Positions 35,442 through 55,550 of a stretch of DNA of 64,000 nt are shown here, piece by piece. Within the stretch, counting starts at the first letter, position 1. Each line of letters opens with the position of its first letter. The DNA is from Mycobacterium marseillense. GTDB taxonomy: Bacteria; Actinomycetota; Actinomycetes; Mycobacteriales; Mycobacteriaceae. The notes under the pieces are model-generated. The model had not been told where the DNA came from, ran no database searches, and worked only from the letters and a program-made list of their open reading frames with translations. The stretch is taken from contig NZ_AP022584.1 of the NCBI RefSeq assembly GCF_010731675.1, forward strand, positions 3,782,001-3,846,000. The letters are read 5' to 3'. The position numbers were made by a program, and so were the translations under genes.

Positions 35442-36010
35442 GGTGGCCCGAGGGGCGGCGACATCGGAGTGCGACGCGTCGTTCACAAACGCGGACCTTG
35501 GCAGCGTTCGCGACAACCTCACTGCGCCAGGTCCTTCCGATCGCCATTTGGTGACAAACCTTTGCAGGTTCGGTTAAGCCGGGGTTAGCATCAGGGACAG
35601 GCGATGAAGCTCGCCTTAACCGCCACATCGGCTGATGGCTTCTACCCGTGACTACGTCGGGTAGAAGGCGGTGGGGCGATTGGCGCATCTTCCCAACCTC
35701 TTTGTTTCGCACTGTGGTGCGCGCGCTGACGTCGAGCGACGTCCGGCACCACACGGGCGCTCCCCCGCCCGTGCACCGCCTCACGCATATCGGCTGATTG
35801 CGACGCCCGTATCTGATTGGCGTCGCGATGGGCCACCTCGACGCGCATCGGCGAGTCTTCGCGAACGACTTTTCATGAAATGCAGATGCCTTTTGTCACC
35901 ACGGGGCCGGAACGCAGACAGCCGCAATCGCTTCCATCCCGACAGCGGTTCTTGCGGTACCCGGCGCCGCCAGTCCCACCGCGGCCGATTGAGCAAGGGA
36001 GCTCGAAAAA
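35442..36010. other. 569-bp intergenic region before the PPE gene
   Basis: No convincing coding region is seen. The first half holds several stem-loops (separate entry), and the second half probably holds the PPE promoter and an AAGGGAG ribosome site at 35995-36001. It marks the boundary between the catabolic block and the accessory block. Confidence 0.5.
35557..35667. other. Cluster of three stem-loops, possible terminator or structured RNA
   Basis: Stems are AACCT/AGGTT (35557-35570), CGGTTAAG/CTTAACCG (35571-35578 with 35615-35622) and a perfect 10-bp CTTCTACCCG/CGGGTAGAAG with a 9-base loop (35639-35667). No U-tract follows. They may end the sulfotransferase transcript or form a leader RNA. 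No known riboswitch class was recognised. Confidence 0.4.
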
Positions 36011-37396
36011 ATGGATTTCGGAATGCTTGCACCGGAGATCAACTCCGCCAGCATCTACGCCGGGCCCGGTCCGGGACCCATGTTGGCCGCAGCGGCGGCC
36101 TGGGACCAACTCTCTGCCGAGTTACATTACACGGCAACATCTTACGGATCGGTGGTGTCCGGGCTGACCGCCGGGTCATGGCTGGGTGCCTCGTCAGCCG
36201 CGATGGCGGCGGCCGCCGCACCCTACGTGGCGTGGATGACCACGACCGCGATCCAGGCTGAGCAAGCCGCCACGCAGGCCAGGGCGGCAGCGGCGGCTTT
36301 CGAGGCGGCGTTCGCGATGACGGTGCCGCCGCCGGTGGTAGCGGCCAACCGCAGTCTGCTGATGACATTGATCGCGACGAACATCCTTGGGCAGAACACC
36401 GCGGCGATCGCGGCCACCCAAGCCGAATACATGGAGATGTGGGCCCAAGACGCTGCCGCGATGTACGGCTACGCGGGATCCTCGGCAGCCGCATCGACAT
36501 TCACGCCGTTCACCCCGCCACCGCCGACCACGGACCCCGCGGGCATGGCCGGCCAGGGCGACGCGGTCGGAGAGTCACTCGTGTCCAACGGACCCCAGGT
36601 GATGTCTGCGCTCAACCAGGCAGTACACGGGTTGGCAATACCCGCCACAACGGCGGCGCCTTTGCTAACTCTGCCCACTGCGCTGGATCCCACCACCCTG
36701 ATCACTATCCTCACCCTGATCGCGATTCCGCTGATATCGATCGACATACCGATAGCAACGACCGGTGTCGTCGCGTCGACGACGAGTGCAACGGCATCGT
36801 TCACATCGGCAGGAACCACCTACCGCGGCTTCATGATCAACGCCGACCGCGATTATGCGGCAGGCAAAGGGCCATTCACCGGCTACGGGCCGGGTGGTGA
36901 AATGGTGCCCCAATGGATTTTCGGCGGCCCGAACGCTTTGACCGAAACACCCAGCGCTGCACCGCTTCCGGTGGCCGCCGGCGTGGGGCGGGGGGCGACG
37001 GTCGGCGCGCTGTCGGTACCTCGCGGGTGGACCGCGTCCGCGCCAGCGTTCCGCACCGCCGCCTATGCGCTGCCGCTTACCGCGGTTGAGGCGGCCCCCG
37101 AGATGGTTGCAGGTAGTTCCGGCAACCTGTTCAGCGAAATGGCATTGGCCGGCATGGCAGGGCGCGCCGCCGGCACCACGGCCGGCTTTGCGCGCGGAAA
37201 TGAGCGCATCAGGGCGGATCCCCGCGAAAAACCGAAGCCCGCACAGCGACCACAGGGCGAGCCGGTACCCGAAATCGCCGCCGAGTTACGGGAACTCGCG
37301 TCGCGGGCGCAATCGCTCCTTGCCAAACTGCACGACAGCGGTCTGATGAACGAGCAGGAAGTTTCAGAGCAAAAGCGCCGCTTTCTCGGTAGCTAG
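36011..37396 (+). CDS. PPE family protein (PPE-SVP subgroup) with SHOCT-like C-terminus
   Basis: A 461-residue protein. The PPE domain (residues 1-180) starts [18 protein letters not shown], with APE in place of PPE, and has the WxG turn GSWLG (Trp57). A proline-rich spacer and a hydrophobic middle follow, then the SVP motif SVPRGW at 335-340. The last 37 residues ([19 protein letters not shown] plus KRRFLGS) look like a SHOCT domain, unusual here. There is no adjacent PE gene. PPE proteins are exported by type VII (ESX) systems, usually with a PE partner. Confidence 0.92.
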
Positions 37397-38610
37397 TGAC
37401 CAGCGGGGCGACGTAGCATGCCCGAGGCCAGGACAGCCGCGACCATCCAAACTGCCGCGTATCCGAATGCCGCCGTTGGGGAAGCGAGTGTGTACAAAAG
37501 CCCGGCAACCACCGTGGCGACGACATCGCCGATGGCCTGTACGACACCCAACACACCAAACCCGCTGCCACGCAGGTGGTCCGGCAGTAGCTGCGCTACC
37601 ACCGCGGATTCGGTGGGCTCGGCCAACCCGATACCGGCGCCGGCGGCGCCGAAGGCCACCACAAGCGGCCATATGCCGCTCCCCCCGGCGGCGAAAAGGC
37701 CGTATCCGATCACGTACACCGCGGCCCCTGCGGCGAAGACGACCCGCGGTCCGGCGCGGTCGTACCATCGGCCGGCGATCAATGAGGCCAGCGTCGCAAT
37801 CACGTTGTGGCTGGCATAGATCAGGATGGCGAGCGACGTGGCGGCGGCGAGAGATCGCTGTGGTGTGGTGAGTAGCTGCGTGGCGCGAAGGATCAGCAGC
37901 GTCGTGGCGACGTTGCCGAATTCAAAGAGCGCTACCGGCGCCAGCGCGCGAAGCATGCCGGCGTCGCGCAAGGCCGCCAGATCGAGCCGTCGGTTCGGCG
38001 CGACTTGACTGACGGCCCGACTGCGGCGCCGGCCTTCTCGCGCGGCCACATAGATCGCGATGGCGGCGAACAGACCCGGGATCGCGGCCAATAGCAGAGC
38101 CGGGCGCACGCCGACCAAAGCCACGAGGCCGGCCGCCAGGAGCGGACCGGCGACCGCGCCAAGGTTGTCGCCGGCCCGCTCCAGGCCGAACGCCCTACCG
38201 TGAGCTGCGGTTGGGGTGATGGATGCCAAAAGGGCGTCGCGAGACGGCGAACGCAACCCACGCGAGACCCAGGCCAGCGCGCGCAAGACTCCCGCTTGCC
38301 ACACCGTGGCGGCCAGCCCAATGGCGCCCGTGGCAAAAGCGGTGCCGAGATAGCCACCCGATGCGGTGCGCGCCCGCTTGCGGGGATCGTTGGCCAACGG
38401 GCCGCCCGCCAACTGCATCACCCCGACCAGGGCGTCGCTCAAGCCGTCGATGACACCCAGGGCTGCCGCGGAGCCGTGCAGTGTGCCGGTCAGGAAACTT
38501 GGTAGCAGCGCGGTAGTGATTTCGTGACCGGAGTCGGAGAAGAAGCTCGCCGCACCGACCGCGCCCACGCCCGGAGTCAACCAGCGCTCGTCCTTCCTGA
38601 TGCCGGTCAT
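37393..38610 (-). CDS. Major facilitator superfamily transporter
   Basis: A 405-residue protein from ATG 38610 with about 12 hydrophobic segments and the MFS loop [19 protein letters not shown] after segment 4. Its ATG overlaps the stop of the phosphatase gene (ATGA). Its end overlaps the convergent PPE gene by four bases. Substrate unknown; the [14 protein letters not shown] pattern is typical of a widespread uncharacterised MFS group. Confidence 0.88.
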
Positions 38611-39179
38611 TGCGCCTTGCGGTCGTAGAAATCGACCCCCCAACGTCTCCCGCGGCGGCTGATCTGGTTGTAGCACGCCGTGCGTTGCCCAACCCCGTCC
38701 AGTTCATGATCAAGCATTCGAAGGAGCGCAGTGTTGAACGCGTCGTGGGACACCATTACCAAGGGGCCGTTGTCGTATTCCCGTACCAACTCGCTAAAGG
38801 CGGCCAACGCGCGGACCGCTAGCGCTTGGGCGGGCTCGACGCCAGGCGCGGCGTCCACACTGCCGAACCGTGCTTCAACTTGAACGCGTGGCTCACCGGT
38901 CCACGGCCCATAGTCGCGATCATTGAGCCGCTCGTCGATCCTTACCGGGACGCGCGCCGCGACGCCGATTGCTTCCGCCGTGGCAACCGCGCGCTGCAGC
39001 GGGCTGCTGATGACGCACGTCGGCCGAAACACCGAAAGCGCTTCGGCGAGCCGGGTGACCTCCCCCTGCCCGACCTCATCGAGCGGTGGGTCAGAGTGGC
39101 CGCGTAAGCGGTCGTCGGCATTGAGGGCCGTCCGTCCGTGCCGTGCCAAGTAGACACGGTCGACACCGTTGACGGGCAT
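38607..39179 (-). CDS. Histidine phosphatase family protein
   Basis: A 190-residue protein with the phosphoglycerate-mutase-like RHG motif (YLARHGRTALN; His14), the second-site GPWTGE region and VMVSHDAF with the second active His. AAGGAG precedes the ATG at 39179. It would hydrolyse a phosphate ester by a phospho-His intermediate. It is coupled to the MFS gene, and divergent from the NUDIX/Hyc operon. Substrate unknown. Confidence 0.88.
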   Translation of the reverse strand: MPVNGVDRVYLARHGRTALNADDRLRGHSDPPLDEVGQGEVTRLAEALSVFRPTCVISSPLQRAVATAEAIGVAARVPVRIDERLNDRDYGPWTGEPRVQVEARFGSVDAAPGVEPAQALAVRALAAFSELVREYDNGPLVMVSHDAFNTALLRMLDHELDGVGQRTACYNQISRRGRRWGVDFYDRKAQ

Positions 39180-39397
39180 GGTTCTCCTTCTGTCCGGCAG
39201 GAGCCATCAACCCGTGTGGGCGGTTCGGACACGTAACGTCATCCCGGCGGAGATCCATCGCCTTGCGCCCAGCCTACCGACGAAGCGATAAATCCTCGCC
39301 ACAAGTGGCATAACGGTTGGAGTACCGTCATCGCTTGACCGGCTACCGGACTGTTGATTAACTGACATTGACCGTTTGACTGGCGATGGTGCCCGCC

Positions 39398-39413
39398 CGG
39401 AAGTTGACTTCCG
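39398..39413. promoter_or_regulatory. Palindrome CGGAAGT-TG-ACTTCCG upstream of the NUDIX/Hyc operon
   Basis: A perfect 7+2+7 palindrome 44 bp before the NUDIX GTG in the 278-bp divergent space. It resembles the DosR consensus at 13 of 20 positions by my alignment, which is suggestive only. The rest of the space shows no gene. Confidence 0.5.
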
Positions 39414-39457
39414 AACCGCCACAAGGCTGATGGCCCCTGCGAACGAAGGAGTCGCAG

Positions 39458-39955
39458 GTGACCTCTTTGCCTTACTCTGCGCCGGGACGCAGGAGCATAA
39501 CGACATCCCTCAAGGATCCCCCGGTTGAATTGCGTTGTGCCGTAGCGGTCGTCCGCGGTGATGCCGTCCTGCTGGTGCAGCGCCCTGACCGCGGCGATTG
39601 GGTGTTACCCGGCGGCCGTCCACATCCGCAGGAGGGGCTGGCGTCATGCGCGCGGCGGGAAACCCGCGAGGAGACGGGTCTCGACGTCTTCCCCAACAGG
39701 TGCGCCCTCGTCCTTGAAGTCAACGACCCTGTTACCCGGCGTCGCGTGGTGGAAGTCGTGTTCATCGCCGAAGAATTCGACACCGCTTCACAGCCGGCCG
39801 GTGAGGCGGGCCGTCCGCCGGCGTGGGTCCGATGGGACCAACTCAAGACGCTCACCCTGCACCCGCCCATCGCCGGCTTCCTCCCCGACCTGCGCCGCGG
39901 CGGATATGCCCGTTACCTCGGCAACATGTGGCGTCCGGATTGGGACGACCGATGA
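39458..39955 (+). CDS. NUDIX hydrolase
   Basis: A 165-residue protein from GTG 39458, with AAGGAG six bases upstream. The Nudix box is GGRPHPQEGLASCARRETRE plus ETGL at residues about 52-74, with all key Glu residues present. It hydrolyses a nucleoside-diphosphate-linked compound, unknown here. Its stop overlaps the hycD start (ATGA), so it is the first gene of the hyc operon, an unexpected partner for a membrane complex. Confidence 0.9.
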   Translation: MTSLPYSAPGRRSITTSLKDPPVELRCAVAVVRGDAVLLVQRPDRGDWVLPGGRPHPQEGLASCARRETREETGLDVFPNRCALVLEVNDPVTRRRVVEVVFIAEEFDTASQPAGEAGRPPAWVRWDQLKTLTLHPPIAGFLPDLRRGGYARYLGNMWRPDWDDR

Positions 39956-40911
39956 CCAGCCTGCCACTGCCCGTCGTCCAGATCCTGCAAGTGCTGACCG
40001 TGGTGGCCGGTGCACCGGTCATCAGTGGATTCATCGCCTGGTTTGAGGCGAGGCTGCAGGGTCGCCGTGGGCCGCGGATTCTGCAGCCGTATTTCGACTT
40101 GGCCAAGCTGTTTTCCAAGGAAAGCCTTGCGCCGGTGGGCGCCGGTGTGTTCTTTCTTTTCGCGCCGGTGGTGTCCCTCGCCTGTTATCTGACTGTGCCG
40201 ATGCTTATTCCGGTACTCACCAGCTATCCACTGCCGCTGGGGTACATGGGCGATATCCTCGGCGGCGGTCTCATCCTGGCGTTTGCGAGCTTCGTCGTCG
40301 CGGTCGCCGCGGCCGAGACCGGCGACAGTTACGCACAATTGGCGTCCAGCCGCGCCAAGACGTTCTCCGCCATCACAGAGCCGGTTATGCTGCTCGTTGT
40401 TTTCGCCGTCGCGATGATCACGACCACTGATCTCCCCTACGTTCTGGGCGCGGCGGTGCGCAGCGGTCCCGATCAGATCGTGCGCCCCGCGCATCTATTG
40501 GCCTCGGCGGCGCTCTTCATGGTCATCCTCTACGAAACCGGACGAATCCCCGTCGAAACCCACACCGGCACTACTGAATTCGGAATGATTGAAGCCGGCC
40601 GTTCGTTCGAACACTCCGATCCGCAGTTAGCCTTGCTGCAGTGGGGGTCAGCGGCCAAACAGCTTGTCCTGTATGTAATCGTTCTCAACGTTTTCGTGGC
40701 CCCCTGGGGCATGGCCTCCACCACCGGGCCACTTGACGTTGCGTTGGCGATTCCGGCGCTACTGGGCAAGGCGGCGCTACTGGGATGCGCGATCGCGGTA
40801 TTGGACAACAGCTTCGCCAAATTGCGGCTGTTCAAGATCACCGAATTCGTATCGGCCGCGCTGCTGCTCTCGGTTCTCGCCGTATTCACCCTGTATTTGG
40901 GAGGTGGCTGA
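39952..40911 (+). CDS. hycD: HycD/NuoH-like membrane subunit
   Basis: A 319-residue protein from ATG 39952 with about eight membrane segments. The NuoH/HyfC signature RRGPRILQPYFDLAKLFSKE follows the first segment, and the cytoplasmic loop ETGRIPVETHTGTTEFGMIE carries the conserved acids. It matches M. tuberculosis HycD (Rv0084). In complex I and group 4 hydrogenases this subunit links the hydrophilic arm to the proton channels. Coupled to the NUDIX and hycP genes. Confidence 0.9.
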   Translation: MTSLPLPVVQILQVLTVVAGAPVISGFIAWFEARLQGRRGPRILQPYFDLAKLFSKESLAPVGAGVFFLFAPVVSLACYLTVPMLIPVLTSYPLPLGYMGDILGGGLILAFASFVVAVAAAETGDSYAQLASSRAKTFSAITEPVMLLVVFAVAMITTTDLPYVLGAAVRSGPDQIVRPAHLLASAALFMVILYETGRIPVETHTGTTEFGMIEAGRSFEHSDPQLALLQWGSAAKQLVLYVIVLNVFVAPWGMASTTGPLDVALAIPALLGKAALLGCAIAVLDNSFAKLRLFKITEFVSAALLLSVLAVFTLYLGGG

Positions 40912-41594
40912 TGAGCCTGCCGGCAGCCAGCCACACGGTGCCCACCGTCTTCGACGGCATCGCCAACACTGTCGCGGTCGTCATGCTGTTACTCGAATTC
41001 GGGATGCTGCGCGCGGCCCTGCTGCGCTCGCAGGTACGCCTGTATGCGGGGCAGTCGCTGGCTGTCAGTGTGCTCGCCGCCGTCGTTGCCTACGGCCGCG
41101 ACGTCCCGGAGTTGTATGCGCTGGCCGCTCTTTCGCTATTGCTCAAGGTGGTGGTCGTGCCCCTGGTCGTCCTCGCGCTGTTGCGCGATGCGCGCGCCGA
41201 GATCGCGGGCAGCGGCGCGGTGGGGGTGGCCAATCAGGTGCTGGTGGCGATCGGCGTCACCGCGTTCGGCTTCTTCTCGGTTGGTGTCTTGGGCATCCAC
41301 TCAGCTGTGCTGCCCACCACCGCGTTGAGCCTCTCGGTCGCCGTCGTGCTGGTCGCGTTCGTGTTGATGATCATGCGCCGAGACGTCGTGAGCCAGGCCA
41401 TCGGATTCTTCTCGCTGGAAAACGGCGTTTCGTTGGCGAGCCTGGTGGTGGCGGCAGGCATGCCGCTGATTCTCGAGGTGGCGTTCCTGTTCGATCTGCT
41501 CGTCGCAGTCGTAGTTTTCGGGGTGTTGATGCGAACCCATCACCGCCGCACCCGCTCACTGTCCACCGACACCCTCGACCAGCTGAGGGGGTAG
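40911..41594 (+). CDS. hycP: HycP/HyfE-like membrane protein
   Basis: A 227-residue protein with about seven membrane segments (AVVMLLLEFGMLRAALL, LYALAALSLLLKVVVVPLV). It matches HyfE/HycP (Rv0085 in M. tuberculosis), a NuoK-like membrane subunit. Its ATG overlaps the hycD stop by one base (TGATG). Start chosen by this overlap, as the longer frame only shadows hycD. Confidence 0.88.
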   Translation: MSLPAASHTVPTVFDGIANTVAVVMLLLEFGMLRAALLRSQVRLYAGQSLAVSVLAAVVAYGRDVPELYALAALSLLLKVVVVPLVVLALLRDARAEIAGSGAVGVANQVLVAIGVTAFGFFSVGVLGIHSAVLPTTALSLSVAVVLVAFVLMIMRRDVVSQAIGFFSLENGVSLASLVVAAGMPLILEVAFLFDLLVAVVVFGVLMRTHHRRTRSLSTDTLDQLRG

Positions 41595-41598
41595 CGAG

Positions 41599-43113
41599 AT
41601 GTCGTTCCCGCTGGTGGTTTTGGTGCTCGTGCCAGCCCTGACCACCTTGGCGTGCGTCGTCGTGCCCCGTCGGGTAGCCGCCACGCTGACTGTTGCCACC
41701 GGGATTGCCGCGTTTGCATTCGCAGTGGCGCTGGTCGCCCCGGCGAACGAACACACACTGACAGCACTGCGCTATCTGCGTGCCGATGCGTTGTCGGTCG
41801 TTTTCGTGTTGGGCACCGCGTTCTTGTACATGACGACTGCCATCTACGCCGTCGGCTATCAGGCGGCCGAAGCCGCCCGGGTCGCCACCGGCGCAGAAGA
41901 CCGGCATGTGTTTGCGCGCTACAGTCGGTTCTTTTACGTCGGTCTCAATGCCTTCGCGTGGTCGATGCTGGCCGCGCCACTGGTCAACGGGTTGGCGCTG
42001 CTATGGATAGCCGTCGAGATCACGACGGTCGTGTCGGCGCTGCTGGTGGCCCTGGACGACACCGAGGGCGCCACTGAGGCGGCGTGGAAGTACGTGTTGA
42101 TCGCCTCTTCCGGCCTTGGGATCGCGTTGTTGGCAACAATTTTCATGTACTACTCCGGATCCACCGTCCTCGGCGAATCCTACGACTTGGCGTTCGATCC
42201 GCTGGTGCGTGGTGCCGCAAAGATGCCGCACACGCCGGTGGCGCTCGCCTTCGTGCTGGCCGTCGTCGGCTTCGGCACCAAGGTTGGACTGTTCCCGGTG
42301 CACACCTGGCTGCCTGACGCGCACGCCGAAGCACCCACCCCCGTTTCGGCGCTCTTGTCAGGATCGCTTCTGGCGGTCTCGTTCTACGCGATCCTGCGGT
42401 TCTATCAGATCTCCGTCGTCCCCCTCGGCTCTCGCTTCCCGCAACTCGTGCTGCTGGTATTCGGCGTGGCCTCGCTCCTGCTGGCAGCGTTGTATCTGCT
42501 GGAGCAGCGTGACATCAAACGGCTACTCGCTTATTCAAGCGTCGAACACATGGGCATCCTGACAATCGGGGTGAGCTTCGGCGTTCCGCTCGCCTTGACC
42601 GGTGTGTTGCTCCACGTCCTGGCTCATGCCGCTGCGAAGGGAAATGCGTTCATGGGTGCTGGAGTGATGGTGCGCAAATACGGCACCAAAGAACTTCACC
42701 GCATTCGGGATGCGATGTCGCGGCTGCCATGGTCGGCGCCGATGTTTCTGTTAGCGGTATTGGCATTGGGCGCGATGCCACCGTTCGGCTTGTTCCGCAG
42801 TGAATTTCAGATCGTCGCCGGAGGGCTGACCGACCACCGCAATGCCGCCGCGGTTGTGCTGGTCTGCCTCGTCACCGTCGCGTTCACCGGCCTCACCGCC
42901 GCCACCACGTGGATGCTGTTCGCACCCTCGCGGGTCGAGGGGCCGGGAGCCGCGGCAGCAGCCGCGATGGAGCGGGGGGAGCCCAGCACCTGGATGGTGG
43001 TCCCGGTGCTGATGGGCCTGGGGGCATTGCTGCTGCTCGGGCTGTCCCCGCCGGGCGATCTGATCCAACTACTCACCCACGCGGCGAATGATTTGGCGGG
43101 AGTGGGCCGATGA
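41599..43113 (+). CDS. hycQ: HycQ/HyfF-like proton-translocating antiporter subunit
   Basis: A 504-residue Mrp/NuoL-type protein with about 14 membrane segments. Conserved proton-path residues appear in LLWIAVEITTVVSALL (Glu), GFGTKVGLFPVHTWLPDAHA (Lys, His) and KRLLAYSSVEHMG. It matches Rv0086. Predicted to move protons across the membrane, driven by conformational change from the hydrophilic arm. It overlaps hycE by four bases. Confidence 0.9.
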   Translation: MSFPLVVLVLVPALTTLACVVVPRRVAATLTVATGIAAFAFAVALVAPANEHTLTALRYLRADALSVVFVLGTAFLYMTTAIYAVGYQAAEAARVATGAEDRHVFARYSRFFYVGLNAFAWSMLAAPLVNGLALLWIAVEITTVVSALLVALDDTEGATEAAWKYVLIASSGLGIALLATIFMYYSGSTVLGESYDLAFDPLVRGAAKMPHTPVALAFVLAVVGFGTKVGLFPVHTWLPDAHAEAPTPVSALLSGSLLAVSFYAILRFYQISVVPLGSRFPQLVLLVFGVASLLLAALYLLEQRDIKRLLAYSSVEHMGILTIGVSFGVPLALTGVLLHVLAHAAAKGNAFMGAGVMVRKYGTKELHRIRDAMSRLPWSAPMFLLAVLALGAMPPFGLFRSEFQIVAGGLTDHRNAAAVVLVCLVTVAFTGLTAATTWMLFAPSRVEGPGAAAAAAMERGEPSTWMVVPVLMGLGALLLLGLSPPGDLIQLLTHAANDLAGVGR

Positions 43114-44612
43114 CCACCGCGGCTACGAGAGAACTCCTACTGCCGCTTCCCCAATGGCGCGCAGAAGTACTGGACCGCCTTCGCGGTGGTGCGCGCTTCG
43201 GGGGGATGTATTGCACCCACCAAGACGAGGATGCACAGATGCGGGCTCTGCTGGTCACCCGTATGGGCGTGGAGTGCATATCAGCCGAACTAGCGCCCGA
43301 ACCGGACGGCGAGTTGACCTATCCGTCCTTGACACCCGATGTGCCCGCGGCGTTTTGGTACGAACGCGCCCTGCGCGACTTGTCCGGGGTGATGCCGCTA
43401 GGTCACCCCCGGTTGGATCCCCTCCTGCTGCCCTGGGAGCCCGGCCAACAGCGTCCCCGGCCCGGGCGCCGCGAACCCGCGGGCGAGGTACCGGCCAGCG
43501 ACCGGCAAGGCCCGGTCGATGTGAGTGGGCACGGTGTGTTTACGCTGCCGCTGGGACCGGTTCGCTCAGGCGTGTACGAGTCGATCGAGTTCCTCATCGA
43601 AACGCCGGGAGAAGACGTCCCGCACTTCAATATTCGTCCCCACTACAAGCACCGTGGCATCGCCAAACGCTTCGAAGGCCTCGGCGTCGACGACGCCGTT
43701 CTCATCGCCGAACGCGTCGAAGGCATCTCCAGTGTCGCCCATGCCCTCGCGTTCGCTCATGCGGTGGAGAGCTTGTCCGATGTTGAGCTCCCGCCACGCG
43801 CCGGGCTCCTTCGCGTCATCCACGCGGAACTCGAGCGCATCGCCAACCATCTCGACGTGGTCGTGCGCCTGTGCGACGCCGCCGGACTCGCCGTGGGCAA
43901 TGCCCGCTTTGGCTGGCACAAAGAGGCGGTCATGCGGCTGGTATCGCAGTTGTGCGGCAACAGGTTTGGCCGCTCTGTGGTGCGCATCGGCGGCGTTGCC
44001 GCGCCACCGCGCATGAGTCCGGCCGCCCTACACGCCACCATTGACCTCGCGGCACAACGAATCCGCGCGGATCGGCGTGCGTTGATGGAAAGCCCGTCCT
44101 TCCTGGACCGCATCCGCGGCACCGGTCGGCTGGACGCGAAGCTGGCGGCCTCTCATGGAGCGTTGGGACCGGTCGGTCGCGGCTCGGGATTCGACGACGA
44201 CGCCCGCCTCCATCGCTCATATGACGGATACTCGGAATTACCCGGGTTCGAGCCCGCCATGAGTGCCGACTGCGACGCGATGGCGCGACTGCGGGTGCGG
44301 TGGGCCGAGATTGACACCGCGGTCGCTCTGGTCCAACACGCCTGCCAGCGCCTCGGCGACACGGCGGATCACGATCTTGCGGTTCCGGTCGAACCACGTG
44401 ATGGGTTCGCTACCGGCTGGGCGGAGTCGCCACAGGGCGAGGTCCTCTACGGCCTGGAGGTACGCGAGGGCCGCGTCGGGCGCTGTTTTGCCCGCAGCGC
44501 CTCACTGCACAACATGGTGCTCTTCCATGACGTGTTCCACGGCGACGTCTTCACCGATTTCCCGTTCATCGAGGCCAGCTTCGGCTTGTGTTACGCCGGG
44601 GTGGCGATGTAG
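43110..44612 (+). CDS. hycE: HycE-like large subunit lacking N-terminal NiFe ligands
   Basis: A 500-residue protein: NuoC-like N-terminus (1-110), then the 49-kDa/NiFe-large fold from residue about 140. The first ligand motif of NiFe hydrogenases, RVCGICG, is here RVEGISS (Glu204, Ser207). The C-terminus ends FPFIEASFGLCYAGVAM without the second Cys-x2-Cys pair. So nickel cannot bind in the known way. It matches M. tuberculosis HycE (Rv0087). It is closer to energy-converting hydrogenase-related complexes than to formate hydrogenlyase. Confidence 0.88.
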   Translation: MTTAATRELLLPLPQWRAEVLDRLRGGARFGGMYCTHQDEDAQMRALLVTRMGVECISAELAPEPDGELTYPSLTPDVPAAFWYERALRDLSGVMPLGHPRLDPLLLPWEPGQQRPRPGRREPAGEVPASDRQGPVDVSGHGVFTLPLGPVRSGVYESIEFLIETPGEDVPHFNIRPHYKHRGIAKRFEGLGVDDAVLIAERVEGISSVAHALAFAHAVESLSDVELPPRAGLLRVIHAELERIANHLDVVVRLCDAAGLAVGNARFGWHKEAVMRLVSQLCGNRFGRSVVRIGGVAAPPRMSPAALHATIDLAAQRIRADRRALMESPSFLDRIRGTGRLDAKLAASHGALGPVGRGSGFDDDARLHRSYDGYSELPGFEPAMSADCDAMARLRVRWAEIDTAVALVQHACQRLGDTADHDLAVPVEPRDGFATGWAESPQGEVLYGLEVREGRVGRCFARSASLHNMVLFHDVFHGDVFTDFPFIEASFGLCYAGVAM

Positions 44613-45422
44613 ATGGTGGTGTTTTTCCGCGGCTTGCGCGACGGTCTTCTCAGTACGAGATGGCCGAAGCACCATGACATGTATTTCGATCAGTTTCCGG
44701 CCGCGGTCGAGGTAGTACCGCGCCGCGACCCTCGTGCGGGTGACCGCCGCATACTGCGTCGGGCCGCGGAAGCCGCCGCCCAGTGCCCCACCGCGGCGAT
44801 CGCGGTCGCCGAGATGCCCGAGCTGGACCGGGGCAAATGCATCCTGTGCGGGCGCTGCGTCGCCGCAGCCCCGGAGTGGTTCGACTGGGAGCAGGGCGCG
44901 GCCACGGCGAGGTTGCGGCGTGACGCGCTCGTGGTCTCCCCCGTAGCCGAAACCGGCGAGGCACTGGATGTCGTGCGATCCGAACTGGCCAAACGCGTGC
45001 GGCGGTTGCGCCGCTCCGTGCACCTCCGCCACGTTGATGCCGGTTCGGACGGCAGCGACGAATGGGAAGTCAATGCCCTCACCAATCCCGTGTATGACGT
45101 GCATCGGCTGGGCATCTTCTTCACCGCGAGCCCCCGCCACGCTGACATCCTGCTGGTCACCGGGATTGGCACGACCGGCATGACCGAACCGCTGCGCCGG
45201 ACTTTCGAGGGCATGCCCCGGCCCACTGTGGTGATCGCGGTCGGTACCGACGCGATCGGTGGTGGCATCATCGGCGGCGGCTACACCGGCGGCACCGGGA
45301 TCGGCGGACTGGCGCCGGTCGACGTGTGGGTCCCCGGATCGCCCGCCTCGCCGTTCAGCCTGCTACACGGCATCCTGCTCGCACTCGGCCGGCTGCCCGC
45401 CGCCTCGAGGAGTGCGTCATGA
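44613..45422 (+). CDS. NuoB-like small subunit with ferredoxin domain; cluster ligands lost
   Basis: A 269-residue protein, similar in role to Rv0082 but longer. An N-terminal ferredoxin-like part has Cys58, Cys76, Cys79 and Cys82 (GKCILCGRC), enough for one 4Fe-4S cluster. The NuoB-like half keeps the fold (YDVHRLGIFFTASPRHADIL, VTGIGTTGM). Its usual cysteines are gone: EVNALTNP at the start, GTDA for GDCA and GSPA for GCPP. The proximal cluster is therefore probably absent. Starts one base after the hycE stop. Confidence 0.85.
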   Translation: MVVFFRGLRDGLLSTRWPKHHDMYFDQFPAAVEVVPRRDPRAGDRRILRRAAEAAAQCPTAAIAVAEMPELDRGKCILCGRCVAAAPEWFDWEQGAATARLRRDALVVSPVAETGEALDVVRSELAKRVRRLRRSVHLRHVDAGSDGSDEWEVNALTNPVYDVHRLGIFFTASPRHADILLVTGIGTTGMTEPLRRTFEGMPRPTVVIAVGTDAIGGGIIGGGYTGGTGIGGLAPVDVWVPGSPASPFSLLHGILLALGRLPAASRSAS

Positions 45423-47440
45423 TCGGCGTCGGGTTGGCGCTTGCGGGTCTGGCCGTGGTTGCCGGATGGCCCACGTCTCAGCGACGCGGGCCCCAGTTGG
45501 TCGCGGCGACTGCGGTGGTGGCGTCGGCCGCAACGTTTGTCGTGGCCGGTGGGCGTGGCCTAGCCGGGCACGAAGACCGTTTGCCGCTGGGCGGCTTAGG
45601 CGGGCTCGGCCCTGCGGCTCTGCACGTCGACCCGCTCGCGGGGCTGTTTCTGGTGATCGCGGGAGGGGTGGCAGTCCCGGCATTGTGCGCGGCAGCCGCG
45701 TTTGCCGGTGCCCGCCATGGCCGACTTACCGCCGCGCTGGCGTTGACGATGGCGGCGGTCGCGGTCGTCGTCACCGCAGACAACCTGTTCGTCTTGTTGT
45801 TCGGGTGGGAAGCGCTCACTGTCGCGTTCTATCTTCTCATCGGTTTCGACCGGGACCGGCCAGGCCGGGCACGCGCATCGTTGGTCATGGTTGTGTTCGG
45901 CAAGGCCAGCGGCACCGCCCTGCTCCTCGGCGGTCTGCTGCTGGCCGCGCACACCCACACCTTTGCCCTTGACGCCAAAGCCGTTGACGCACACGGCGCA
46001 CTGGGGCAGGCCGCGTATGCGTTACTGCTGGCCGGGTTCGCGATCAAGGTCGGGCTGTTGCCCGGACACGTATGGCTGCCGCGCGGCTACGCCGCCGCCC
46101 CTGGACCCGCCCGCGCGGTGATGGCCGGCGCCGCGGTCAACGTTGGCTTCTACGGCATGTGGCGCACCCTGCAACTTCTTGGAGCGCCACCGCCGTGGGT
46201 GGTGTGCGCGGTGCTGATACTCGCCGGGATGAGTGCGATCTTCGGCATCGCCCAAGCAGCGGTCCACCCCGACCTCGTGGTCCTGATCGGCTGGTCGAGT
46301 GTGGAGAACGCCGGACTGATTCTCGCCGGTTTCGGGACCGCCCTCGTCGGCGCCGCCGCCAATGAGCCGCTCCTGACCGCAGCCGGTCTCGTGGCGGCCA
46401 CCACCCAGGTCATCACCCACGCCATGGGTAAATCACTCCTATTCACCTCGACAGCGGTGATCGAGGGTGCGACGGGCACCACCGACTTGGACCGCCTCGG
46501 CGGCATTGTGCGCCGATTGCCCTGGGCCGGAACAGGACTGGTTATCGGTTCGCTCACGCTGGCAGGTTTACCGCTGACGGCGGGGTTCGCCTCGGAATGG
46601 CTGATCTTGGAATCGCTGATGCAGCAATTCCGGGTCCCCGGCCTGGCCATGCAGTTGTGCACCGCCGTCGCCGGCGTGTTGGTCGCGCTCACCGTCGGGG
46701 TGGCGGGGGTGACATTCGTCCGCGTGGTCGCGCTGACTGCGTTCGGACCACCACGAATCGACGAACCGTCTTTCGACCCGGCCGGTGCTCGGGTGGACCG
46801 TCACACCTGGCTGCGGATCGGCATCGCTCTGCTTATCACCGGATGCCTCGGCGTGGCCGCCCTTGCGCCGCTAGAGATCCGCGTCATCGCTCGCGGGCTG
46901 GCCCCGATCGTCGGTGACCGGGCACGCGGTGCCAATGCCAAACCCTGGGTGCTGCAACCGGTTTTCGGCGAGTTCTCGGCGCTATCGCCCAGCTGGCTGT
47001 GGATCGTGCTGCCAGCGATGGCCGTCCTCGTCGCGATGGTCGCCAGCGCACTGGCGGGCCGTCGTCTGAATCGCGTGCGGCGGGTGGCACCGTGGTCGTC
47101 GGCATCGCCGGGTGTGCACCGTGGCGTCGGATATACCTCTTTCGCCTACGCCAATCCGATGCGCAACGTGCTCGGCAACGTGTTGATGACCCGAACCGAG
47201 TTACGCGGTGCCCCAGTCGAACCGTCCACGCAAACCGTCGGGCAGCCCGTCCTGACCTACCGGGTCGAGGTGGTCGAGATTGTCGACCGCTACCTGTACC
47301 GGCCGGCGATCGCGGCCCTGCTCGCGGTTGCGCGCGCGGCCAGGCGCCTGCAATCGGGCCGCCTCGATGCCTACATGGCGTATATGCTTTTCGCCGTCCT
47401 CGCCGTACTCGCCGTAGTCATCGCGGCATCCCGATCATGA
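45419..47440 (+). CDS. HyfB-like proton-translocating antiporter subunit (Rv0083-like)
   Basis: A 673-residue protein from ATG 45419, overlapping the previous stop (ATGA). It has about 16 membrane segments. NuoL/M-type motifs are LLFGWEALTVAFYLLIG, GFAIKVGLLPGHVWLP and LIGWSSVENAGLILAG. It is the second large proton channel of the complex, with HycQ, and matches M. tuberculosis Rv0083. The C-terminal region has a long soluble loop followed by a last helix. Confidence 0.88.
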   Translation: MIGVGLALAGLAVVAGWPTSQRRGPQLVAATAVVASAATFVVAGGRGLAGHEDRLPLGGLGGLGPAALHVDPLAGLFLVIAGGVAVPALCAAAAFAGARHGRLTAALALTMAAVAVVVTADNLFVLLFGWEALTVAFYLLIGFDRDRPGRARASLVMVVFGKASGTALLLGGLLLAAHTHTFALDAKAVDAHGALGQAAYALLLAGFAIKVGLLPGHVWLPRGYAAAPGPARAVMAGAAVNVGFYGMWRTLQLLGAPPPWVVCAVLILAGMSAIFGIAQAAVHPDLVVLIGWSSVENAGLILAGFGTALVGAAANEPLLTAAGLVAATTQVITHAMGKSLLFTSTAVIEGATGTTDLDRLGGIVRRLPWAGTGLVIGSLTLAGLPLTAGFASEWLILESLMQQFRVPGLAMQLCTAVAGVLVALTVGVAGVTFVRVVALTAFGPPRIDEPSFDPAGARVDRHTWLRIGIALLITGCLGVAALAPLEIRVIARGLAPIVGDRARGANAKPWVLQPVFGEFSALSPSWLWIVLPAMAVLVAMVASALAGRRLNRVRRVAPWSSASPGVHRGVGYTSFAYANPMRNVLGNVLMTRTELRGAPVEPSTQTVGQPVLTYRVEVVEIVDRYLYRPAIAALLAVARAARRLQSGRLDAYMAYMLFAVLAVLAVVIAASRS

Positions 47441-47469: not shown

Positions 47470-48738
47470 TTAGCCCCGCGGCAGACCGAACCCACAATCG
47501 GGGTAGTCGGCAGCAACCTCTGCCAACCGGTTGTATTTCGCGACCCGCTCTCCGCGCGCGGGGGCGCCGGATTTGATTTGCCCGCAACCGGATCCGATCG
47601 CCAGATCGGCGATGAAGGTGTCACAGGTTTCGCCCGAGCGGTGCGAAATCATTGCGCCATAACCAGCGGCTCGGCACACCCGCAAGGCCTCCATCGTCTC
47701 GCTGACCGTGCCAACCTGATTGACCTTGATCAATGCCGCGTTGGCGATTCCGGCCTGGACCGCAGCGCGGATCAGCTGTGGATTGGTGACAAAGTTGTCG
47801 TCGCCAACCAATTGGACGCGCTCGCCGAGGCGTTCGGTCAGCCCGCGCCAACCAACAGCGTCCGACTCCCCCATTCCGTCTTCGATACTCCAGATCGGAA
47901 AGTCCGCCACCATCTGCGCGTACCGCTGGATCAGCTCGTCGCTCGAAAGCGATTGCCCGCCAATCACGTAGCAGCCATCACGGTAGAACTCGCTGGCCGC
48001 GGGGTCCAGGGCGATGGCCACCCCGGAACGCCCGGGTGTGTAGCCGGCCGCGACGATCGCCTCGACGAGCAGTGCCAGTACCGCCTCTGGAGAAGCGATG
48101 TCGGGAGCGAAGCCGCCCTCGTCACCCAGACCGGTGCCCAACCCGAGTTCTTGCAGCGCGGCGCGCAACCGCGTATAGACTTCCGCACCCGCGCGGATCG
48201 CTTCGGGCAACGAGGGGGCGCCCAGTGGAGCGATCATGAACTCCTGGAATTCCAACGCATTTGGCGCGTGTGCACCGCCGTTTACCACGTTGAAGTGCGG
48301 CAACGGCAGTCGCGGCCGCACGCCGTCCGGTGTCAACCAATGCCACAAGGGCTGCTGCGATTCGACTGCGAATGCCCGCGCCGCCGCCATCGAGACACCA
48401 ACGATCGCGTTGGCTCCCAGCCGCGACTTGTCCGGTGTGCCGTCGAGCCGAATCAACTCCGCGTCGACCTGCTCGAGCGTGCCGAACGCACGGCCTATCA
48501 GTGCGTCGGCGATCGGGCCTTTGACATTCGACGTCGCTCGGCTGACACCTCGGCCCCCGTATCGCCCCGCGTCGCCGTCACGCAGTTCGGTCGCTTCGCG
48601 GCTACCGGTGGATGCCCCCGATGGCACACCGGCGCGCACCTCGCGACCATCGGAGAGCGCCATTCGCACCGATACGGTGGGGCGGCCCCGGGAGTCCAGC
48701 ACCTCCAAGGCGGAAACAGACGAAAAGGTCACAGGCAT
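47470..48738 (-). CDS. eno: Enolase paralog
   Basis: A 422-residue enolase from ATG 48738, with AGGAG 5-9 bp upstream. Active-site motifs are intact: LPHFNVVNGGAHAPN, GDEGGFAPD, SIEDGMGESD, LIKVNQVG and SHRSGET. It converts 2-phosphoglycerate to phosphoenolpyruvate. The main mycobacterial eno is normally elsewhere (next to septum genes such as divIC), so this is probably a second copy. It is convergent with the hyc operon (30 bp apart) and divergent from the DUF190 gene. Confidence 0.9.
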   Translation of the reverse strand: MPVTFSSVSALEVLDSRGRPTVSVRMALSDGREVRAGVPSGASTGSREATELRDGDAGRYGGRGVSRATSNVKGPIADALIGRAFGTLEQVDAELIRLDGTPDKSRLGANAIVGVSMAAARAFAVESQQPLWHWLTPDGVRPRLPLPHFNVVNGGAHAPNALEFQEFMIAPLGAPSLPEAIRAGAEVYTRLRAALQELGLGTGLGDEGGFAPDIASPEAVLALLVEAIVAAGYTPGRSGVAIALDPAASEFYRDGCYVIGGQSLSSDELIQRYAQMVADFPIWSIEDGMGESDAVGWRGLTERLGERVQLVGDDNFVTNPQLIRAAVQAGIANAALIKVNQVGTVSETMEALRVCRAAGYGAMISHRSGETCDTFIADLAIGSGCGQIKSGAPARGERVAKYNRLAEVAADYPDCGFGLPRG

Positions 48739-49033
48739 AACGGATCTCCTAAACCCAGTCAGCCAGGGACCGTTGGCGCAGCCACAGACGCTTCTGCAGC
48801 CGCCGCGATTATGGCGAGCCCCACCGCCGTCGGAAACGAACACTACCAGCGTCCGCCTGGGGCATCGGTCTTCGCGGCGGGGGCAACGGGAGAACGTCCC
48901 CGGCGCGGCGATGGGAATCACCGATCTCGATCGGACATCCGCTCGGAGCGTAGTATTTCGGCAAGCGACGGGCCCTGGTGGTTTCCCTTCGGCGGCATGA
49001 AAGCCCTTGTACACCAATGTTCGAGGAGCGGCG

Positions 49034-50113
49034 ATGGACGAAGACTGTCTGAAGCTCACGACGTATTTGGCCGAGCGCCGACGGACCGACGACGGCTTTG
49101 TTTCCGACGTGCTGCTCGGCCTGTATGAGCGGCACCGCATCGCCTGTAGCGTGGTGCTGCGCGGGATCAGCGGCTTCGGCACCATGCGCCGTTTTCGGAC
49201 CGATCAATCGTTGACATTGTCCGAGGATCCGCCCGTGGCGATCATCGCGACCGACACCAGAACCAAGATCGAGCCGCTGCTTGATCCGGTGCTGTCGATC
49301 AAACAGCGCGGCCTGGCGACATTGGAGCGCGCACGACTGTTACGTGAGGACATCGCTCCCGCAGAGCTCCCGGACGATCTGCGTGAATCGGTCAAGTTGA
49401 CGATTTTCGTAGGACGCAAGGAACGCGTCTACGGAATGCCGGCCTACATCGCCATCTGCGATTTGATGTATCGACGCCGAATCGCCGGCGCATCCGTACT
49501 TTTGGGCGTTGACGGCGTCGCTCACGGACAGCGTCAACGTGCTCACTTCCTCAGTCGCAACGCCGACGTTCCGATGATGATCGTCGCCGTCGGCTCCGGC
49601 GAACACATCGGCCGCGTACTACCGGAGCTGGGTGGGCTGCTCCACCGGCCCATGTTCACCCTGGAGCGAGTCCGCGTCTGCAAGCGCGACGGACAGTTAC
49701 TGGAACGACCGCATGCCCTGCCGGGGACGGACGAACATGGCTTGCCACTGTGGCAGAAGCTGACGATCTACACGTCCGAGTCGGCCCATCATGGTGGCGT
49801 GCCGATTCACCGCGCAATCGTCCAGCGGCTACGGCAGGGCATGACCGCGGACGGCGCGACCGTGCTGCGCGGCGTGTGGGGTTTTCACGGTGACCACCCG
49901 CCCCACGGTGACAAATTCCTCTCGCTGGCTCGCCGGGTGCCCGTGGTCACCATCGTGATCGACACCCCGGCCAACATCGCCGAATCCTTCGCTGTCATCG
50001 ACGAATTGACGAGCGAGGAGGGGCTGGTCACCAGTGAGATGGTGCCCGCGCTGGTCTCCGACGAGGGCGACGGCGGGCAGGGCCCGCCGCGCATGGCCCA
50101 GCACCGCTACTGA
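49034..50113 (+). CDS. Triple DUF190 protein
   Basis: A 359-residue protein from ATG 49034, with GAGGAG upstream. It consists of three successive DUF190 units at about residues 1-110, 118-215 and 235-340, each with the YER/ICDL-type helix and a GASVLLGV/GATVLRGV strand (CSVVLRGISGFG, ASVLLGVDGVAHG, ATVLRGVWGFHG). DUF190 has a PII-like fold and often neighbours CrcB fluoride channels, which are absent here. Possibly a regulatory or ligand sensor for the neighbouring complex. Convergent with the aldolase, one base apart. Confidence 0.85.
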   Translation: MDEDCLKLTTYLAERRRTDDGFVSDVLLGLYERHRIACSVVLRGISGFGTMRRFRTDQSLTLSEDPPVAIIATDTRTKIEPLLDPVLSIKQRGLATLERARLLREDIAPAELPDDLRESVKLTIFVGRKERVYGMPAYIAICDLMYRRRIAGASVLLGVDGVAHGQRQRAHFLSRNADVPMMIVAVGSGEHIGRVLPELGGLLHRPMFTLERVRVCKRDGQLLERPHALPGTDEHGLPLWQKLTIYTSESAHHGGVPIHRAIVQRLRQGMTADGATVLRGVWGFHGDHPPHGDKFLSLARRVPVVTIVIDTPANIAESFAVIDELTSEEGLVTSEMVPALVSDEGDGGQGPPRMAQHRY

Positions 50114-52502: not shown

Positions 52503-53582
52503 CTACCCGGCCAGCACCTGCGCGATGCGGTCGTCGCGCGGCAGCACCGGCCCGTCGTCGAGGGGTTCGTCGATGCCCAGGTCGGTGAGCCCGGCTTTGG
52601 TCATCAGCGAGGTGCCGTAGGCGGCGAGCACGAGTTTTTGATCGTCGCTGTGGCCGTCCTCGACGAGCATCGCGCCGATGAGGCAGATGACGGCCATCTT
52701 GAAGGCGTTGAAGGCCCGGTACCAGGCTCGGTTGGCGACGCTGATCCCGCTGGCCGACTCGTAGTGCGCCAGCAGGGCCTCGATGGGCAGGGCCGCGGGG
52801 TGGCTGTTGATCCCGACCGGCTGCATCCGCAGCATCTCGAGCCAGCCGATGTCGGTGAGCGGGTCGCCGACGGTCGTCATCTCCCAGTCGAAGACGGCGC
52901 TCACCTCGCCGGCGGTGAAGGCGAAGTTGCCCGGTTTCGCGTCGCCGTGCACCAGCGCAACCCTGGGGCACGGGTCGGGCTTGGCGACGAGCAGGGCCTC
53001 GTGAAGGCGCTCCAGGGCGGGCAGACGGTCGCGCTTGACCCGGTCCATCTCGGCGGCCCAGTGGCCCAGTTCGCGGTCCAGATGGTCGGCGCCGTCGTCC
53101 AGTGTGTCCAGCCCGGTCCGGGTGAGGTCGACGGCATGGATGGCGGCCAATTGTTCGACCAGGCTCTGACACATCCGGACCACCGTGTGGTCGGCGGCGC
53201 CGGCGGGGGGCTCCATTTCGTACACGTCGCCGTCGACCCGTTCCATGACGAAAAACGGCCGGCCGAGCACCTCGCCGGACGGTTCGAGCCACAGCGCCGG
53301 CGGGACGCGGACCGGCGTGTCGGCCAGGGCGCGCAGGATGGCGAACTGCCGCGCGAGATCGTAAGGCTCGAGCAGCGCGGGCGGTGGGGGCCGCAGCCGC
53401 AACACCACGTCTTGGCGGTCGTCACGGCCGCCGCGCCGGGAGATGACGCTGAGCGTCATCATCTCCGCCGAGTGCCCGAAGCTCACCCGATCGATGCCCT
53501 CGAGGCGGACGTCGTCGGCGTCGGGCACCTGCGCACGCACCCACTCGGTCAATCGTCGTTCCCGATCCGCGTCCAGGGTCAC
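52503..53582 (-). CDS. APH family phosphotransferase (ACAD10/11 N-terminal type)
   Basis: A 359-residue protein from GTG 53582, overlapping the upstream stop (GTGA). The catalytic loop is ALVHGDAKPGNF and the metal loop FDWEMTTVGDPLTDIGW. This pattern is that of APH-like kinases found beside acyl-CoA dehydrogenases, which phosphorylate hydroxy-acyl substrates; drug resistance is not implied. Coupled to the CrtC-like gene. Confidence 0.87.
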   Translation of the reverse strand: MTLDADRERRLTEWVRAQVPDADDVRLEGIDRVSFGHSAEMMTLSVISRRGGRDDRQDVVLRLRPPPPALLEPYDLARQFAILRALADTPVRVPPALWLEPSGEVLGRPFFVMERVDGDVYEMEPPAGAADHTVVRMCQSLVEQLAAIHAVDLTRTGLDTLDDGADHLDRELGHWAAEMDRVKRDRLPALERLHEALLVAKPDPCPRVALVHGDAKPGNFAFTAGEVSAVFDWEMTTVGDPLTDIGWLEMLRMQPVGINSHPAALPIEALLAHYESASGISVANRAWYRAFNAFKMAVICLIGAMLVEDGHSDDQKLVLAAYGTSLMTKAGLTDLGIDEPLDDGPVLPRDDRIAQVLAG

Positions 53583-55464: not shown

Positions 55465-55550
55465 GTCCAGACGTTCGATTGGTTTTCTCCGACGGCGTTG
55501 GTGTCGATGACGCAGCGGCGGGGTCGCGTTGAAAACCGGGATGGGTGGAC

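Follow-up and report, generated by a model that had tools for sequence, protein, structure and literature searches.

A fluoride riboswitch-controlled relative of complex I and group 4 hydrogenases without NiFe and N2 ligands in Mycobacterium marseillense: a possible proton-driven system of fluoride handling

A 64-kb stretch of Mycobacterium marseillense DNA (hereafter the window), which belongs to a genome of 5.5 Mb in 2 contigs and bears a mycobacterial mark in the form of a PPE gene (Pfam), contains seven plus-strand genes at 39458-47440. They encode, in this order, a NUDIX hydrolase, the membrane subunits H, P and Q, a large subunit (LS), a small subunit (SS) and the membrane subunit B of a complex related to respiratory complex I and to group 4 [NiFe] hydrogenases. 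Throughout the seven, neighbouring genes overlap or are separated by at most 4 nt. We suggest that the complex is a fluoride-induced member of this superfamily, F-Ehr, which may use proton motive force to handle fluoride or hydrogen fluoride (HF); we prefer this reading tentatively and would not be surprised to see it revised. The identity and the regulation of F-Ehr are well supported, while its transport mechanism is what we infer. An earlier note on this DNA had recognized a hydrogenase-like complex without NiFe ligands. The loss of the N2 cluster, the single ferredoxin-type cluster motif and the fluoride riboswitches are points beyond it.

The absence of NiFe ligands, as the earlier note had read it, is borne out by an alignment of 80 rows (the window and 79 other loci, with one or two rows gapped at the ligand columns). 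Residues 202-208 of LS are RVEGISS, where E. coli HycE (PDB 7z0s_E) has RVCGICG, and the C-terminus reads SFGLCYAG at the aligned DPC site. Glu204 is invariant (79/79 rows), position 207 is Ala or Ser in 74 rows, position 494 is Ser in 64/80 and Cys in 9/80, and Gly497 takes the place of the fourth ligand in all 78 rows with a letter. The two Cys pairs of group 4 [NiFe] hydrogenases and formate hydrogenlyase are therefore replaced by E204, A/S207, S/C494 and G497, though a lone Cys494 remains in the window. To judge from these columns, LS is without a NiFe site. Ligands hidden elsewhere in the HycE-like chain, which would have overturned the claim, were looked for and rejected: C459 is the sole Cys found in 121/121 close homologues (C282 is found in 119), and in the phylum-wide alignment its column varies (C in 40 rows, V in 33, A in 4, T in 2, one gap; n=80).

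The quinone site of respiratory complex I is not recognizable either. In the ungapped first part of an alignment of LS with T. thermophilus Nqo4 (2fug_4), His38 and Tyr87 of Nqo4, which we take to be the quinone-site residues, fall on Tyr156, which is variable, and on Gly205, which is invariant. His34 of Nqo4 aligns to Arg152 (79/79 rows).

In SS a ferredoxin domain is fused to a NuoB domain, and the latter aligns without gaps over all four N2 sites with HycG of formate hydrogenlyase (7z0s_G) and with Mbh J (6cfw_J). All four N2-cluster Cys, the ligands of the proximal (N2-like) [4Fe-4S] cluster of group 4 hydrogenases, are gone, and D146, D149, D213 and S243 stand instead: GxCxxC has become GSDGSD, the third Cys D213, and PGCPP has become PGSPA. 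In 81 rows over 80 Actinomycetota loci, D146 is kept in 80/81, D/E149 in 78/81, D/E213 in 80/81 and S/A243 in 80/80 rows with a letter, so that an acidic residue occupies three of the positions in nearly all rows, and Ser or Ala the fourth. The ferredoxin domain has kept C58, C76, C79 and C82 (121/121 close homologues; 80-81/81 rows of the phylum) and holds one [4Fe-4S] motif. A second ferredoxin cluster set is not in SS; it is present in the outgroup loci L152-L154, L157 and L161. In formate hydrogenlyase the ferredoxin subunit, HycF, has two clusters.

The membrane arm is a different matter, and the earlier claim that its subunits retain their proton-path residues stands with one exception. 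Counted as fractions of rows with a letter (68-73 rows per subunit), E140, K164, K228, H343, K347 and E402 of Q are conserved at 100% (72 rows), E133, K212, K340 and E395 of B at 100% (68 rows), and E143, E202, K236 and D285 of H at 99-100% (73 rows). Residue numbers of B start here from 45413 and are thus higher by two than a count from the ATG at 45419 would give. The exception is one Lys position of NuoM, which we take to be the Lys of transmembrane helix 8; in the alignment of Q to NuoM it reads Ala.

Compared with M. colombiense, the seven genes have ratios of nonsynonymous to synonymous substitution rates (dN/dS) of 0.05-0.19; six genes give 0.08-0.23 with a further locus (L070), and six give 0.18-0.31 with Humibacter, where dS is near or above 1. 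Because mostly the same gene set recurs in 80 named loci and dN/dS against M. colombiense is so low, the loss of ligands is not a matter of chance. The complex is a maintained machine under purifying selection rather than a ruin.

The second line of evidence is regulation. A search with Rfam RF01734 (cmscan, gathering score 34 bits) finds three fluoride riboswitch aptamers in the window (Table 1), and these are all that the home genome has (E 1e-4). The third of them lies on the strand of the operon and scores above the gathering threshold; its end is 12 nt upstream of the NUDIX start codon. Overlapping its 3' end, a hairpin that encloses the Shine-Dalgarno sequence of the operon (AAGGAG) is probably a translational expression platform; its folding is modest (z -2.07 in a short stretch, -1.74 in a longer one). 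A further riboswitch before the enolase gene, seen by eye as a degenerate copy, was dropped, as 48600-49300 gives no Rfam match up to E 1.

Is the link between fluoride and this complex a peculiarity of one genome? Among 198 mycobacterial genomes, six (our own included) have the window family, at 65-100% identity, and a same-strand switch stands at the start of the operon in all six (coordinates taken from LS). A distant family, with E values of 7e-50 to 5e-29, occurs in 53 of the 198, and three genomes have both. The distant family was tested in 24 genomes that have its locus and lack the near family, and in the copies of G022, G082 and G116; a fluoride switch was near the operon in 0/27. In four of the 24 genomes a switch was found at some other place, and in G022 the switch nearest to the distant-family copy is ~33 kb off, beside the F-Ehr operon. 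Fisher's test gives 9e-7 for this comparison, and likewise for the comparison over the phylum that follows, kinship uncorrected in both.

For the phylum, an even draw of 396 genomes gave 39 with an SS homologue (E 1e-20), and 11 of these (the home genome included) were classed as F-Ehr. Besides the home genome, 8/10 have a same-strand switch upstream: five within ~0.4 kb of H (G313 by offset only) and three at 1.7-1.9 kb. The two without a near switch (G413 and G254) have switches on other contigs. Among the 28 other Ehr or hydrogenase SS homologues of the sample, of which 12 were placed in the LS tree and 16 were not, a switch was near in 0/28; five of the genomes have one elsewhere, G305 at 204 kb on the same contig and G278, G447, G513 and G530, which are drafts, on other contigs.

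The 80 named loci were chosen for likeness to the window (the best 80 of 129), and 68 of them include H and more than 500 bases before it. A same-strand switch lies at most 2.5 kb upstream of H in 36/80, 30 of the 36 scoring above the gathering threshold; 33 were found by rule, 27 of these within 150 nt of the H frame, and L081, L123 and L125 were added by hand, the open reading frame being taken from stop to stop. A switch anywhere in the stretch examined occurs in 44/80 loci, in 42 of them with one above the gathering score. Among the 58 loci of at least 15 kb, 30 have a switch upstream of H and 38 have any switch. The counts for L093-L142 are lower bounds, since the filters were stricter and the cut-off tighter in the search of 50 genomes than in that of the other 30.

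The neighbours of F-Ehr point the same way as its switches. MutS-like proteins are found in 27 of the 80 loci, DUF190 proteins in 21, histidine phosphatases in 18, Usp in 17, CrcB in 16 and enolase in 15; these counts are rough, since a home-made codon-model gene caller misses some genes, and the names rest on the Pfam match of one representative per cluster (for enolase, on likeness to the gene of the window). Behind 90 switches in the named loci stand H (31), MutS-like (12), NUDIX (6), histidine phosphatase (6), DUF190 (4), CrcB (3) and enolase (2); other genes follow fewer each, and no gene was found for 7. We consider a role of F-Ehr in fluoride defence very likely.

The history of the complex was followed in an LS tree of 53 rows, among them 28 of the 80 named loci, chosen by hand; it is midpoint-drawn and has a long NuoD branch. 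The family without N2 ligands (family-1) forms one clade with support 100/100. A branch with support 94/95 sets all F-Ehr apart, namely 29 family-1 rows, 7 rows from the f18/f25/f27 genomes and 3 second complexes that adjoin family-1 operons. Wherever a complete F-Ehr operon is to hand, the gene order is H-P-Q-LS-SS-B. The order is SS-B-H-P-Q-LS in L150, L151, L155 and L162, and on the minus strand in L159 and L160, and it is B-H-P-Q-LS-SS in L152-L154. Of the N2 ligands, L143-L145, L148 and L149 have lost a part, and in family-1 every one has been replaced, so within the F-Ehr clade the loss went in steps. In the non-fluoride Ehr-like loci the N2 Cys are intact (L152-L156, L158-L160, L162) or altered (L150, L151).

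Several loci deserve mention in their own right. L087, L110, L113 and L118 have a second, distant Ehr complex beside the one without N2. These second complexes are cut by the ends of contigs or loci; that of L110 shows H-P-Q-LS-SS-B as far as it reaches and has a separate one-cluster ferredoxin of 112 aa, and in L113 a fluoride riboswitch stands before the Usp gene that precedes the second complex. L150 and L151 (genomes G475 and G432) lack NiFe ligands, have lost N2 independently and show no fluoride switch on that contig; they would represent another redox-poor complex I relative. The LS of L156 and L158 (G530 and G539) have partial ligand sets (ERACGADA, QRACAACA, SFELCYA) with N2 intact, and are possible intermediates between hydrogenase and Ehr.

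Complexes of similar make-up are known. Ehr (energy-converting hydrogenase related) complexes, such as GSU0739-45 of Geobacter sulfurreducens and ehrABCDLS of Methylacidiphilum, are said in PMC13194489, PMC7894505 and PMC6688271 to be without a NiFe centre; going by these descriptions, to which the comparison is confined, they are likewise complex I/Ech-like. The earlier note placed the window complex among them, rightly, as it is a six-subunit set H-P-Q-LS-SS-B of the complex I/Ech type without NiFe ligands. Unlike these, the window family also lacks N2, has one ferredoxin cluster motif and is under fluoride riboswitch control; most of the non-fluoride Ehr-like loci compared here have a small subunit with intact N2 Cys.

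As its close parallel the note had named M. tuberculosis Rv0082-Rv0087, and here we cannot follow it. The gene order of Rv0082-Rv0087 is tabulated in PMC6901956, and we equated the mycobacterial type SS-B-H-P-Q-LS with it by gene order alone. Operons of this type are likewise NiFe-less mycobacterial Ehr with homologous subunits. They differ in gene order and in the intact N2 Cys of both placed members (L155 and L159); the window family lies outside their branch, shares 29-37% LS identity with the distant family and, as given above, differs from it in having the switch. Nor did anything in the locus suggest hypoxia, the condition in which the note would have tried a deletion, though no test aimed at it was made.

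Subunits homologous to those of the window are found in E. coli formate hydrogenlyase 1 (7z0s) and P. furiosus Mbh (6cfw), where the NiFe and N2 ligands that the window lacks are present. The Fluc/CrcB and CLC-F exporters are small channels or CLC antiporters, unrelated to F-Ehr as a putative handler of fluoride, and the CrcB genes in F-Ehr loci were counted above; in our searches, matches to CLC-F and to other CLC were pooled.

That a crcB/fluoride motif precedes 'formate hydrogen lyase' genes is already in print (PMC2864571 and PMC11139923). With the switch upstream and mutS in the list of switch genes, these, recorded there by gene name, are probably the same kind of genes as ours. PMC11139923 reads them as encoding a formate-oxidising, energy-yielding enzyme, and for the window family the sequence speaks against this. 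Our searches of the open-access literature turned up no paper in which the fluoride-linked complex is described as lacking NiFe and N2.

How might such a complex work? Since the NiFe and N2 ligands are lost, formate hydrogenlyase is excluded for the window family, which leaves a fluoride-induced Ehr that is redox-inactive or nearly so. We hold redox inactivity to be highly probable, as far as ligand positions can tell. When cytoplasmic fluoride rises, the aptamer would form, the hairpin would open and the complex would be made. It would be powered by proton motive force and not by electrons, with protons flowing through Q, B and the H/P channel. By conformational coupling of the kind found in complex I, this flow would drive the binding of fluoride (or HF) and its release to the outside. 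The predicted site is the emptied cavity between LS, SS and H, close to the acidic triad where N2 used to be and to the invariant Glu204, Arg152 and Arg202. The surviving cluster may be structural or may serve as a redox gate. That F-Ehr moves fluoride itself is a real possibility, if one on which we would not insist. Appreciably less likely is a more specific variant, in which the soft thiolate/iron-sulfur ligands of N2 would have given way to the conserved Asp/Glu site, and this could hold Mg2+ and thereby F-; there, and with as little assurance, the negative charge of the bound fluoride would stand in for the electron in driving the proton-moving part.

Several points weigh against proton-driven fluoride handling. 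A riboswitch shows when its gene is expressed and says nothing of what the protein does, and the case is one made from sequence. The proposal gives no account of why the ferredoxin [4Fe-4S] motif is invariant. The AlphaFold model of SS was poor (14 sequences, mean pLDDT 56.8) and was not used, so the geometry of the triad is conjectural. The support of the F-Ehr clade is below the level that the program stars, in the midpoint-drawn tree with its long NuoD branch. Some members of the clade have intact N2 ligands (L146, L147 and the second complex of L110), and outside the clade N2 is lost with Thr/Cys/Asp/Asp in L150 and L151; the Asp residues there mean that acidic replacement alone is no mark of fluoride. 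Among the 58 loci of at least 15 kb, 15 show none of riboswitch, CrcB, MutS-like and enolase gene; these are mostly metagenome-assembled genomes (MAGs) of Acidimicrobiia or unnamed lineages. Finally, the home genome also has a CrcB pair (at 2.435 Mb, where no switch was found) and one CLC gene, hence export need not rest on F-Ehr.

For the same reason, F-Ehr was rejected as the sole exporter. A CrcB match was found in 28 of the 36 genomes searched and not in G082, G588, G591, G597, G604, G605, G606 and G608, of which G082 and G591 look like one genome. G588 and G604 (loci L067 and L083), both MAGs and possibly incomplete, gave neither a CrcB nor a CLC match, and L083 has a switch upstream; if these absences are real, F-Ehr may be the only fluoride system there, but this is suggestive only.

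Several other explanations can be put forward. The one that survives best, though we think it rather unlikely, is that the complex serves homeostasis of pH or membrane potential: as a proton/cation exchanger of the Mrp kind acting under fluoride stress, it would expel the protons brought in by HF without touching fluoride. In its favour are the two subunits of antiporter type, whose proton paths are nearly complete, and the Mrp subunits that occur among the solved relatives of these (7d3u, 7qru, 6z16). Yet it leaves the strict conservation of the soluble arm (R152 and E204 of LS, the acidic positions of SS) unexplained.

More doubtful is a residual redox enzyme, whose single [4Fe-4S] cluster would carry electrons from soluble ferredoxin to an acceptor in the old cavity, pump protons and so supply energy while enolase and ATP synthesis are blocked by fluoride. 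The invariance of the four ferredoxin Cys agrees with it, as does the energy-yielding step seen in 'formate hydrogen lyase' by PMC11139923. With N2, the NiFe ligands and the aligned quinone His and Tyr all gone, however, no known acceptor site is left, and the second ferredoxin cluster of some outgroups is missing. We give still less credit to a fluoride- or redox-gated valve, in which the cluster or the acidic site would sense and gate proton flow and protect by adjusting proton motive force. A conserved cluster motif that stands alone next to a conserved membrane arm could be so understood, but a valve made of many strongly conserved subunits would be costly, and the sensing is conjectural.

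Two explanations can be dismissed. A formate hydrogenlyase or [NiFe] hydrogenase is what the source annotation names of homologues say ('formate hydrogenlyase subunit 5', 'Ni,Fe-hydrogenase III'), and among solved structures H, LS, SS and B match formate hydrogenlyase subunits best, but the absence of both NiFe pair and N2 ligands, a state conserved over 80 loci, makes this scarcely credible and agrees with the earlier note, which had denied such an activity; among the seven genes of the operon, to which this search was confined, there is no formate dehydrogenase partner. Nor do we believe in a decayed remnant without function, for which the stepwise loss of cofactor ligands along the clade might be cited, as it is contradicted by the low dN/dS, the invariant charged residues and the largely complete gene sets across the phylum.

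Table 1. Features of the locus, with positions in the window
Feature	Position	Strand	Remarks
Fluoride riboswitch aptamer 1 (RF01734)	35591..35651	+	55.2 bits; upstream of PPE gene
PPE-family protein	36011..37396	+	PF00823; ~360 nt behind riboswitch 1
MFS transporter	37393..38676	-	PF07690; downstream of phosphatase gene
Histidine phosphatase (phosphoglycerate-mutase-like)	38607..39179	-	PF00300; cluster c6, 18/80 loci
Fluoride riboswitch aptamer 2	39191..39271	-	39.4 bits; before phosphatase-MFS genes
Fluoride riboswitch aptamer 3	39373..39446	+	43.5 bits; before NUDIX-Ehr operon
Hairpin CCUGCGA/UCGCAGG	39436..39458	+	overlaps aptamer 3' end, encloses AAGGAG, reaches GUG start
NUDIX hydrolase	39458..39955	+	PF00293; GUG start
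NuoH/HycD-like membrane subunit (H)	39952..40911	+	PF00146; vs 7z0s_D E 2.5e-30
HyfE/HycP-like membrane subunit (P)	40911..41594	+	NF008556 hydrogenase 4 membrane subunit, 81 bits, cut-off 136
HyfF/HycQ antiporter-like subunit (Q)	41599..43113	+	PF00361; proton-path residues conserved
HycE/NuoCD-like large subunit (LS)	43110..44612	+	without NiFe ligands or aligned quinone His/Tyr
Small subunit (SS)	44613..45422	+	one-cluster ferredoxin domain fused to NuoB domain without N2 ligands
HyfB antiporter-like subunit (B)	45419..47440	+	PF00361; vs 7z0s_C E 7.2e-30; ATG start 45419
Second enolase	47470..48738	-	TIGR01060, 507 bits; cluster c10 (enolase-like), 15/80 loci
Three-domain DUF190 protein	49007..50113	+	PF02641, 3 stretches; clusters c9 or c19, 21/80 loci

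The home genome has two enolase genes, the other copy being at C1:4931626. One further LS homologue was found in it, with 27% identity over the NuoD part, which we take to belong to the nuo operon because a NuoB-like match lies upstream of it. Downstream of the locus are two proteins of the APH-type phosphotransferase (kinase) family, at 52503-53720 (minus strand) and 55545-56699 (plus strand). A strong hairpin follows riboswitch 1 (z -3.48). PPE genes stand behind same-strand fluoride switches in four mycobacteria, namely in the window (35591-37396) and in L064, L070 and L071. The spacing of switch and PPE gene in L064 (L064:1-981) is 27 nt, and in L070:2701-4844 and L071:1344-3158 the PPE gene lies behind a small gene that by eye is PE-like and follows the switch; fluoride-regulated PE/PPE proteins are thus possible. 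Some F-Ehr operons without a local switch (L067, L122, L126 and L129) adjoin genes that by eye resemble CtaG-, SCO1- and CcdA-type respiratory assembly factors.

If the Mg2+-fluoride pump were true, Fluc and CLC-F would be joined by a fluoride exporter of a third kind, and complex I by a relative that does its work without electrons. It has long been asked how complex I couples chemistry to the pumping of protons, and a natural relative that keeps the pump without NiFe, N2 and quinone residues isolates the pumping half of that machine. F-Ehr also bears on the reading, in the fluoride field, of 'formate hydrogen lyase' behind fluoride switches as fermentation. It points to a testable function in fluoride defence for a complex that is found across the Actinomycetota and goes under the names of hydrogenase or NADH dehydrogenase.

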